Of a stretch of DNA of 64,000 nucleotides, positions 27,874 to 31,429 are shown piece by piece. Each line of letters opens with the position of its first letter. Position 1 is the first letter of the stretch. The DNA is from Candidatus Poseidoniales archaeon (GTDB lineage: Archaea; Thermoplasmatota; Poseidoniia; Poseidoniales; Thalassarchaeaceae). The position numbers and the translations under genes were made by a program. The stretch is taken from contig JAPOFX010000005.1 of the NCBI GenBank assembly GCA_028283505.1, positions 1 through 64,000 of the forward strand. Direction: 5' to 3'. The notes below the pieces were generated by a model that ran no database searches, was not told the origin of the DNA, and was given only the letters and a program-made list of their open reading frames with translations.

Positions 27874-29040
27874 ATGGTAACGATAGCAGTTGATGCGGCC
27901 TCTTCTTTCATTCGTGACCTGGGGTCTCCCTGTACTGCTATCTCTCTAAGGGATGGTTCTATTATAGCTGGGTCCAAGGAAGGCTCACTAATTTGTTGGC
28001 TAGCCTCAACTGGGAAAGAGGTTTGGAGGGTATCCGTTGAAGGGCCCATTTCAGATATTGAAACAAGTCATGACCGTGTGTTTGTAACGGCCTCGTCTTC
28101 GCTCTATGCCATCGATGACTCGGACGGTTCGATCTTTTGGAAGAGAGAGCTGGAGGGTGCTAGTGATTACGTTCTATCCGTGGAAGGCTCGATTTGGGCG
28201 ACTTCGTCGGTGTATGAGATAGAGGTCGGAGATTACACCGAGTCATCAATATGGAGATTTAATCGATCCGGCGAGTTGGTGAAGCGATGGGTTATTCCAG
28301 AGAGATGCTGGTTTATTGGCCCCTCATTCGGGAAAATAATCTTGGGGCTGGGAAGACCTAGGTGTGGAATTCTAAGTATCGATGGTGATGATCTGGTTCA
28401 TTTTGAGATTGGGGATGGAAATCCGATAGTTTGTGGGGATTACACAACACAAGACGGTGGATCGGCAATATCCATACTTGGCCATTCCAGTGGCGCGGTA
28501 TCTTGGGTGGAAGGACATACTGAAGAAGTGAAAGACCAAAATCGGATCGGTTCGCCTTGGCGGGCCCCCATTATCGAAGAGTCAAGCGCGGCCTGCTGCA
28601 TTCTGGTTCCAGGCATCGGTTCCGAGTTCATTACAGCATACGAAAACGGGTTTATCAAGAGTAATTATGGATGGAGCTATGATGCTCAATCTGCAGTGTC
28701 TGCGATGGCAGTTGGGCCCTCTGGCGATGGAGAGACTAGACGGACCTATTGGGCCTGTGCAGGTCGGAGGGTTCTGGTACTATCAAGTCCAGATACAGCA
28801 GGGGATGTTGATAATTCTGAGGCTCCCGGAGGTCAATTGATATTGGAATTGAGGCATGAATGCCGTCTTGTCGAACCTAACTCAGAAGGAGATACAATAG
28901 TCCTCGGGGATGAAAGAGGCAGAATCTACTCGATTAACGGCCAATTCCTCCGCAGAAGGATAGAGGAAGGGGGCGTAGGGATTAACAGTGACAAAAGGAT
29001 ATCTGTAATGAGAGAGCGATTGAGGAAGCTCCGCGAGTAA
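27874..29040 (+). CDS. PQQ/WD40-like beta-propeller protein
   Basis: A 388-residue protein made of repeated four-strand blades: GSLICWLASTGKEVWRVSVE, SLYAIDDSDGSIFWKREL and others follow the PQQ-like pattern (strand, DxxGxxxW, strand). The C-terminal 30 residues are basic (RRRIEEGG to the end). No signal peptide is visible, so a cytoplasmic scaffold or ligand-binding role is likely; no enzymatic residues are recognised. It is the last gene before the large RNA locus. Confidence 0.7.
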   Translation: MVTIAVDAASSFIRDLGSPCTAISLRDGSIIAGSKEGSLICWLASTGKEVWRVSVEGPISDIETSHDRVFVTASSSLYAIDDSDGSIFWKRELEGASDYVLSVEGSIWATSSVYEIEVGDYTESSIWRFNRSGELVKRWVIPERCWFIGPSFGKIILGLGRPRCGILSIDGDDLVHFEIGDGNPIVCGDYTTQDGGSAISILGHSSGAVSWVEGHTEEVKDQNRIGSPWRAPIIEESSAACCILVPGIGSEFITAYENGFIKSNYGWSYDAQSAVSAMAVGPSGDGETRRTYWACAGRRVLVLSSPDTAGDVDNSEAPGGQLILELRHECRLVEPNSEGDTIVLGDERGRIYSINGQFLRRRIEEGGVGINSDKRISVMRERLRKLRE

Positions 29041-29044
29041 AAAA

Positions 29045-29088
29045 TTACAGTGGAAATTAACATTTACAGACCCTCATTTCCACTGTAA
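29045..29088. repeat. Perfect 13-bp inverted repeat
   Basis: TTACAGTGGAAAT at 29045-29057 pairs exactly with ATTTCCACTGTAA at 29076-29088, with an 18-base spacer. It lies four bases after the propeller gene stop and just upstream of the RNA promoter. It could end the upstream transcript or be an operator for the RNA gene. Confidence 0.7.
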
Positions 29089-29100
29089 ACGTGATACTAA

Positions 29101-29116
29101 GCGAAAGGTTTATTTG
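29101..29116 (+). promoter_or_regulatory. Archaeal promoter (BRE + TATA box) for the RNA gene
   Basis: GCGAAAGGTTTATTTG has a purine-rich BRE-like element followed by the TATA-like TTTATTT centred near 29112. Start of transcription is expected about 25 bases downstream, at roughly 29135-29141, just before the closing helix of the RNA. No protein gene follows on this strand. Confidence 0.6.
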
Positions 29117-29291
29117 CCGTCGCTTGTCCTGTTGACTCTGCCGCTCCGGGGGAGTGGTGTGGGCAAGCTTCGGCAAACCCGCGGGCCACAAAAACCGTAT
29201 CCGCAAAGTCGGAGAGGTAGAACCGGGATCCGAAAGGTGAACGGGGAACAGTTGAATCGTCTGTGGACGAGGAGACGGCAGTAGAACCGAT

Positions 29292-29325
29292 GTGGAAATA
29301 GCCGGACGCAAGGAAGGGGAAAGAA
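29292..29325 (+). repeat. Internal repeat in the large RNA, copy 1
   Basis: A 34-base segment containing CCGGACGCAAGGAAGGGGA; it matches copy 2 at 29474-29507 at 30 of 34 positions, 182 bases apart. It suggests a duplicated module within the RNA. Confidence 0.8.
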
Positions 29326-29473
29326 GCGACGGGGGAAGCTGGGGAAAACGAAACCGAACCCTTCGGGGGGAAAACACAAACCGTACCAGAAAACCATGCT
29401 GCAGAGGTACACGAGAAAAGGGAAAGGAACCAGAGATGGAAACGATCCTAGAAATCGGGTGTGGGGAACAAAA

Positions 29474-29507
29474 GTGGAGAAAACCGGACGCAAGGAAGGG
29501 GAGAGAA
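29474..29507 (+). repeat. Internal repeat in the large RNA, copy 2
   Basis: The second copy of the 34-base module. The four differences from copy 1 are at positions 6, 8, 10 and near the 3' end (A/G or T/A changes); the core CCGGACGCAAGGAAGGGG is unchanged. Confidence 0.8.
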
Positions 29508-29811
29508 ACTAGAGGGAAACACACCGGGAACGAGAGCAGGGAGACCTGTGGAGGACCGGTACCGATCGAGGATTAAAATGGTGACACTAGCCATGGAGAG
29601 AGACGACGAGGGCATTGAAGGAGCGATCCTTCAAGGGGGATATTACCCCAACAAGTCCAGAAAAAGACAAAGGGACCCTAGAGGCCCCAGAGTCATCTAC
29701 CCGGGAAATCCTAGGTAACTAGGAGGAACCGGACCCTGCGGAGTACGCAGGGGGGAAGCTTCCCCAAGCTGAACCCCTGCTGCTCCCACCCTTTCTTGGC
29801 CCTTTCAAACA

Positions 29812-29820
29812 TTTTTTTCT
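29812..29820 (+). terminator. Poly-T terminator of the large RNA
   Basis: Seven consecutive T (29812-29818) followed by CTT, about 25 bases after the closing helix of the RNA and before the end of the convergent fumarase gene. A T-run of this kind is the usual archaeal termination signal. Confidence 0.6.
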
Positions 29821-29830
29821 TACAAGGGTT

Positions 29831-31429
29831 CTACCTAGTACCTGTCATCAGTTCGGGTCTAACCCATTCATCGAATTGATCTTCCGTTAGTGCCCCTAAT
29901 TCCAATGCACTCTCTCTAAGAGTTAGGTTGTTTTTGTGGGCATTTTTTGCAATCTTCGCTGCATTGTCATACCCAATATGAGGGTTCAAGGCTGTCACTA
30001 ACATCAACGAGTTCTCCAAATGTTCAGCGATCCTAACCTCATTGGCCCTCAGGCCCTTGATGCAGTTATCAGTGAATGATCTGCAGCCATCAGAAATTAT
30101 CCTGATTGAGTGGAGCAGATTGTAAATCATCATTGGCTTGAAAACGTTTAGCTCGAAATTGCCCTGACTCCCTCCGATAGAGATAGCCATGTGGTTTCCC
30201 ATCACCTGACAACATATCATCGTCAAAGCTTCTGACTGTGTGGGATTGACCTTTCCAGGCATTATGCTAGATCCCGGCTCATTGGCTGGAAGGGACAATT
30301 CTCCTATCCCGCATCTGGGCCCCGAGCCCAGCCACCTAACATCATTGGCTATTTTCATCAAGGAGGCCGCAAGAGTATTCAGAGCGCCTGAAGCTGATAC
30401 AACTGCATCGTGGGCCGCAATCTGAGAGAATTTGTTGTGAGCACTAGTGAATGGTAACCCGGTTTTTGCGGCGATTTTTGATGCGACCAAATCTGGGAAA
30501 TCGGGATGAGTGTTCAGACCGGTACCTACTGCTGTTCCACCAAGAGCTAATTCGTACAGATCGATGAGGGAGAACTCAATCCTCCTAATATCTGCATCTA
30601 GCATTGAAACATATCCAGAGAATTCCTGGCCGAGGGTAAGAGGTACAGCATCCATGAGATGGGTCCTCCCGATTTTGACGATGGAGTCAAACTCCTTTGA
30701 TTTGAACGAAAGGGCTTCCCTTAGATAGTGTAGCGAAGGTAAAAGTACGTTTGTGATCTGTTCGACTGACGATATATGCATGGCTGTTGGAAAGGTGTCG
30801 TTACTGGACTGTGCCCTATTGACATGGTCATTAGGGTGCACTGGCGTCTTGCTCCCGAGCCTCCCTCCAGCAAGTTCGATCGCTCTATTGGCTATGACCT
30901 CGTTAGCATTCATGTTTGTCTGGGTACCGGAACCGGTTTGCCACACACTAAGAGGAAAGTGTTCGTCTAGACTTCCTGAAATGACCTCCTTGCACGAAGA
31001 TACAATCAGAGATTCTACGTCTTTATCTAATTCCCCGAGTTCAGAATTGGATTCAGCTGCCGACATCTTTAGGATTCCAAAGGCTCTGATTATTGATCTT
31101 GGCATTGTTTCCTCACCAATATCGAAATTTTCCAGAGATCTGGCAGTCTGAGCACCATAATATCTGTCGGCAGGGACTTCTATCTCTCCCATGGTATCAA
31201 CTTCTACCCTTAACTCAGATGGATTTGCCCTTGCAGACCTCGGTTCTGCGATAGGTTCATTGGCATCACTCAGCATATTTCGGGATAGTCCGTCCTCGAT
31301 CATCTTGGCAATTGTTGCCGACCTGCCACTAGATTTTCCTTTCCCTACCCTTCGATCTAACTTTCTAGCGGTTTCCTCGGGTATACTGATGCTTATGATT
31401 CTTCGATCTCCAGCGCGGTGCTTTGCCAT
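29831..31429 (-). CDS. fumC: Class II fumarate hydratase with N-terminal ribbon-helix-helix domain
   Basis: From about residue 72 ([20 protein letters not shown]) to the end this is a normal-length fumarase C, with [20 protein letters not shown] and the signature [10 protein letters not shown]; it interconverts fumarate and malate. The first 50 residues do not belong to fumarase: [20 protein letters not shown] followed by [18 protein letters not shown] has the strand-helix-helix pattern of a CopG/Arc-type DNA-binding domain. A variable linker joins the two in one open frame. ATG 31429 lies close behind an AT-rich dyad, so self-regulation is conceivable. A start at Met52 would give fumarase alone. 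Confidence 0.92.

Follow-up and report, generated by a model that had tools for sequence, protein, structure and literature searches.

A probable new family of large structured noncoding RNAs encoded beside fumC in Poseidoniales archaea

The window, by which we mean the whole 64,000-nucleotide stretch that was analysed (G000:C19:1-64000), comes from a genome of 1.30 Mb that is 89% complete. Within it, a conserved region lies between separate genes for a β-propeller protein and a class II fumarase (fumC), and a sequence-only reading had taken this region for a large structured noncoding RNA of a new class (Table 1). The order β-propeller gene, RNA, fumC was constant in Poseidoniales wherever a contig permitted the check, with the same neighbours found across homologues. 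In genus g16, the β-propeller gene abuts fumC directly. It also does so at L106 (G044:C100), where the RNA is cleanly absent, which makes this a natural empty site. The β-propeller gene evolves fast, has a conserved C-terminal LRxLR tail, and adjoins fumC in most genomes checked. Its product was considered as an obligate partner of the RNA and rejected, because the gene is also found in genomes without the RNA.

Table 1. Features of the RNA locus (positions in the window)
Feature	Position	Strand	Basis
PQQ/BamB-like β-propeller protein gene (flanking, separate)	27874..29040	+	Pfam PF13360; synteny
Inverted pair of TTACAGTGGAAAT half-sites spaced 31 bp apart, immediately before promoter	29045..29088	.	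Fixed distance from RNA
BRE/TATA promoter GCGAAAGGTTTATT (GCGAAAG GTTTATT)	29101..29114	+	Fixed TATA-RNA spacing
Noncoding RNA, conserved core	29138..29790	+	Homology, covariation, invariant termini
P1 hairpin GCCGCUCC/GGAGUGGU	29140..29158	+	98% paired; compensatory changes; both families
P2 hairpin, UUCG-type loop	29159..29182	+	Strong covariation, both families
Possible closing pairing GGG 29183-29185 / CCC 29734-29736	29183..29736	+	RNAalifold; invariant in one family, so unproven by covariation
Hairpins 29194-29218 and 29223-29244 (GAAA loop)	29194..29244	+	Covariation
Hairpin with conserved UGUG loop	29251..29276	+	Covariation
Long-range helix 29278-29283/29397-29402	29278..29402	+	Both-side changes in 6/6 pairs; pair 29280/29400 significant
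Repeat hairpin copy 1, CCGGAC-GCAA-GGAAGGGG (GNRA loop, tandem G·A/A·G)	29302..29319	+	81 distinct copies compared
Long-range helix 29406-29410/29559-29563, enclosing three further helices	29406..29563	+	Covariation counts
Helix GUGUG/CACAC 29459-29463/29520-29524, enclosing repeat hairpin 2 (29484-29501)	29459..29524	+	Covariation
Hairpin with GAGA/GNRA loop	29536..29549	+	Three significant pairs
Hairpin GAAGGA/UCCUUC	29617..29632	+	Four significant pairs, among them 29617/29632, which covaries most strongly in the alignment
Helix CCGG/CCGG enclosing variable hairpin	29701..29732	+	Pair 29704/29729 significant; UA/CG swaps
3' terminal hairpin GCGGAGU ... CUCCCA closing 8-pair covarying stem	29737..29788	+	GCGGAG...CUCCCA also in sister family
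Class II fumarase gene (fumC), flanking, convergent to RNA	29831..31429	-	Pfam PF00206 and PF10415

A protein-coding reading of the region was not supported. No ORF was kept in frame among relatives, both plus-strand ORFs were hit by 1- to 2-base indels even inside the genus, and a test for codon-level conservation found none. This agrees with the earlier view that the purine-rich plus strand (66% purine) holds no credible protein gene. Known RNAs had also been judged not to match, and this judgement held. A scan of the whole 64-kb window against Rfam 15 gave nothing above gathering scores, and a scan of the RNA region alone gave no match up to E<=10, whether to archaeal RNase P RNA (RF00373), archaeal SRP RNA (RF01857), or any ribozyme family. 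ARAGORN found no tRNA or tmRNA. RNase P and SRP RNAs are, like this RNA, stand-alone structured archaeal RNAs, but they are encoded at other loci. The RNase P RNA of the same genome is at G000:C2:30254-30545, and its gene is elsewhere in 57 of 60 relatives; SRP RNA is elsewhere in 51 of the 60 and at the RNA locus in none. RF01857 gave no hit in the source genome itself, which probably reflects an assembly gap because most congeners carry SRP RNA.

The RNA occurs in every genus of Thalassarchaeaceae, the family of the window, and in three genera of its sister family. BLASTN of 60 relatives detected it in 13 of 15 congeners and in six further genera of the family. The two congeners without it also have no fumC, so the region is missing from their assemblies. 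A first covariance model, built on the 5' domain, matched 116 of the 293 genomes of the order, including sister-family genus g22, and a shorter two-family model added the remaining genera of the window's family and sister-family genera g15 and g17. In sister-family genera g12, g13, g14, g16, and g18, the RNA was detected neither beside fumC nor elsewhere; a 53-position model sets the sensitivity of these absences, and the E values of the purpose-built models are rough. One of the RNA-less genomes is a closed single contig. Therefore, the RNA is not universally needed. Because one locus holds it in both families, the gene was probably ancestral and then lost in some genera.

Among 84,980 species genomes, the 5' signature had 63 matches, and all 63 were in Marine Group II archaea (Poseidoniales), including Thalassarchaeaceae and 'Candidatus Thalassarchaeum'. 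It was not found in viral contigs, and viral carriage was rejected. Outside the order the models gave only weak matches, and the six of them inspected all lay inside long ORFs and were attributed to chance. At L180 (G130:C32, 3989-4054, flank to ~4500), between an RHH-like ORF and an ORF of no assigned function, the TATA arrangement recurs together with a 5' domain resembling P1/P2 (R3, 40 bits). The sequence downstream of this domain is unrelated to the RNA, and no other genome of the order contained it, so this second locus is either a paralogue or a contaminant contig.

Evidence for structure came from comparison of homologues. A full-length alignment of 55 homologues folded with RNAalifold into 158 pairs. 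Because plain shuffles ignore phylogeny, we built a phylogeny-preserving null with our own script rather than R-scape, in which the parsimony-change count of each column was kept and the branches were redrawn. By empirical null counts, 26 of the 158 pairs were significant, against 0.1 expected, and they included long-range helices. The mean covariation score of the structure pairs was 17.9, versus 0.0±0.33 in the null. Two pairs, both belonging to the structure, exceeded all whole-alignment null maxima. At looser whole-alignment thresholds many pairs outside the structure also scored high, at about twice the null expectation, so some phylogenetic signal is still uncorrected. Refolding of the null alignments, which controls for a structure picked from the same data, gave -159 to -189 kcal/mol and 0 or 1 significant pairs, versus -297 kcal/mol and 26 pairs. 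An exponential tail fitted to the null left one significant pair; we judged this too strict and replaced it with the empirical counts and a test of the structure set. The region is a structured noncoding RNA, with covariation beyond the phylogeny-preserving null.

Hand-checked models of the two ends were also examined. Changes on both sides occurred in 14 of 31 pairs of the 5' domain (7.3 in shuffled alignments) and in 17 of 28 pairs of the 3' domain (8.2 shuffled), and none of 500 shuffles reached the observed score in either case. For P1/P2 across both families, 95% of cells were paired and the covariation score was 0.398 versus 0.167 shuffled, again reached by none of 500 shuffles. Alignment folding favoured the plus strand (-297 versus -249 kcal/mol for the minus strand), as expected for the plus-strand RNA that had been proposed. 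Single-sequence folding was unremarkable, with z scores of -1.5 (plus) and -1.8 (minus).

The fold is branched. P1 (strands 29140-29147/29151-29158) shows the swaps CUCC/GGAG, CUUC/GAAG, and CUCU/AGAG. The long-range helix 29278-29283/29397-29402 encloses an arm with the first repeat hairpin and a CCC-UUCG-GGG stem. Significant pairs in the GUGUG/CACAC helix were 29459/29524, 29461/29522, and 29462/29521, the last being one of the two above every whole-alignment null maximum, and a further long-range helix (29525-29527/29556-29558) was supported. The hairpins with UUCG, GUAA, and GAAA loops seen in the sequence-only reading are present and covary, as does the one with a GAGA loop. A 10-pair helix that had been proposed to close the molecule (29150-29159/29778-29787) found no support. 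Most of the helix does not vary, one compensatory cell occurs among the 55 sequences, and in some genera several of the pairs are disrupted; furthermore, its strands are parts of local hairpins, the 5' strand of P1 and the 3' strand of the terminal hairpin. The terminal core is conserved between the two families, whereas the interior is completely different.

The RNA is predicted to be transcribed from its own promoter. A BRE/TATA-like element had been noted, and it is present with a TTTA-to-RNA spacing of 25 bases in 61 of 61 homologues. Archaeal transcription starts roughly 22 to 27 bases downstream of the TATA box. With the spacing fixed in this way, transcription should start within a few bases of P1, and the predicted start is at ~29133-29138. 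Just upstream, the TTACAGTGGAAAT sites lie ~90 and ~60 bases from the RNA, at a distance kept in most Thalassarchaeaceae homologues. This dyad may be the binding site of a dedicated activator or other transcription factor. In the source genome there was no other perfect copy and one match with one mismatch, at the control level, and a dedicated regulon was not found there. At the other end, the T7 run read as the terminator proved specific to the genus: no more than 23 of 61 homologues have five T's at a distance of 60 bases or less from the conserved 3' end. Conservation stops with CUCCCACC at 29790, and the mature 3' end is predicted near this position. Because the T7 run is not conserved, the length is ~655 nt, which corrects both the 3' end and the length (~650-680 nt) proposed earlier. 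Across the family, the 5' and 3' signatures are 565-844 nt apart.

A repeat hairpin occurs as 81 distinct copies in 44 of 61 RNAs, with one to six copies per RNA. Counting from the loop, it reads C-GNRA-G, followed by A·G, G·A, and G·A (86-99%) and then by two Watson-Crick or wobble pairs (98-99%), the inner of which varies among CG, UG, and UA. Further out are about eight purine·purine appositions, and pairing resumes at positions 15-16. This ten-base spacing suggests one helical turn. In Thalassarchaeum there are as many as six copies, and the RNAs are up to 844 nt long. At L026 and L027 there are up to six purine hairpin copies, with a ten-base internal periodicity on both arms.

Order-wide homology and synteny, a covarying branched fold, fixed promoter geometry, no conserved ORF, and no Rfam entry come together at this locus, and we regard it as nearly certain that this is a real, new family of structured noncoding RNA. 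The reading from which the analysis started came through most of the tests run against it. As to function, we propose that the RNA would act in trans as a free-standing scaffold (architectural) RNA. The shared core would consist of its conserved ends, P1/P2 and, on the 3' side, GCGGAG-hairpin-CUCCCA, and would either be recognised or close the molecule. Long purine-rich arms, made of GNRA-capped helices with stacked purine·purine mismatches, would give it shape and may pack onto helices within one RNA molecule or between copies, with or without protein. Because arms are swapped and multiplied without loss of the core, a scaffold fits better than an enzyme. The conservation of ends and promoter, the interchangeable purine-rich arms, and the loss of the RNA from some genera together best fit a trans-acting scaffold. 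We hold this mechanism tentatively, at somewhat below an even chance; the whole statement, of an independently transcribed ~655-nt noncoding RNA that founds a new family in Poseidoniales and acts as a trans-acting scaffold, strikes us as evenly balanced.

Alternatively, the RNA might be a regulatory sponge or decoy, whose repeated CUGGAC-GNRA-GGAA hairpins bind and titrate an RNA-binding protein, as in CsrB or 7SK; repeat expansion would then set the copy number. That 44 of 61 RNAs have one to six near-identical hairpins would suit this role, and the conserved dyad before the promoter suggests regulated transcription. However, some genera have one or no copy, yet the rest of the fold is strongly constrained, and sister-family RNAs differ in their interior. 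We consider a sponge unlikely.

A separate question is whether the locus has already been seen in part. Our literature search found no description of the RNA, and the only candidate overlap, weighed by its published description, was Tan1, an abundant 229-nt noncoding transcript of Marine Group II archaea with homologues in Thalassoarchaea at 75-79% identity (PMC5069720). Tan1 comes from the same lineage and is likewise a complex structured RNA of no assigned role, and its homologue identities resemble the intergenus identities of this RNA. However, Tan1 has only about one-third of the length, and in the same study the lengths measured for RNase P and SRP RNAs were as expected (PMC5069720). That Tan1 is part of this RNA is rather improbable.

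An enzymatic role, as a ribozyme or as the RNA component of a ribonucleoprotein enzyme like RNase P, could explain a large, complex, and slowly changing core with long-range helices. This seems slightly less probable again, because the RNA is lost in related genera, its best-conserved parts are terminal hairpins and not an internal core joined across helices, and ribozyme families give no match. A cis element, as a UTR or attenuator of the β-propeller gene or fumC, would account for the constant position between the two genes but is highly improbable, because the fixed-distance promoter lies downstream of the β-propeller stop codon, the RNA is convergent to fumC, and both genes persist in genomes without it.

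Among known RNAs, the nearest counterparts include the large ornate bacterial RNAs OLE, ROOL, and GOLLD, each of which presumably has a model in Rfam 15. Scanning of all of Rfam 15 and sequence comparison gave no match to them in the RNA region. Unlike them, this RNA is archaeal, chromosomal, and adjoins fumC, and a prophage or tRNA-island setting was not seen. Like them, it is ~600-850 nt with its own gene (PMC12286853, PMC9723947), and it shares an elaborate branched fold, GNRA-type loops, and the lack of a settled biochemical role.

Archaea are a domain with few known RNA classes, and a family of 565-850 nt that is conserved in the greater part of an abundant surface-ocean order would open a new one. 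Conserved archaeal RNAs outside the ribosome are, to our knowledge, ~300 nt or shorter. It is possible, though doubtful, that this is the first large nonribosomal structured RNA class of Archaea, architectural in nature and part of an RNA-based particle in abundant ocean archaea. In such a class, the arms would be long, GNRA-capped helices of stacked purine·purine pairs, in which Watson-Crick pairs recur at intervals of about ten bases and which different lineages lengthen or multiply. With a covarying model, exact termini, and a promoter, the RNA is directly testable in metatranscriptomes and by in vitro folding. Furthermore, the repeat hairpin is of use to RNA structural biology, as a long purine·purine helix that occurs naturally in about 80 versions.
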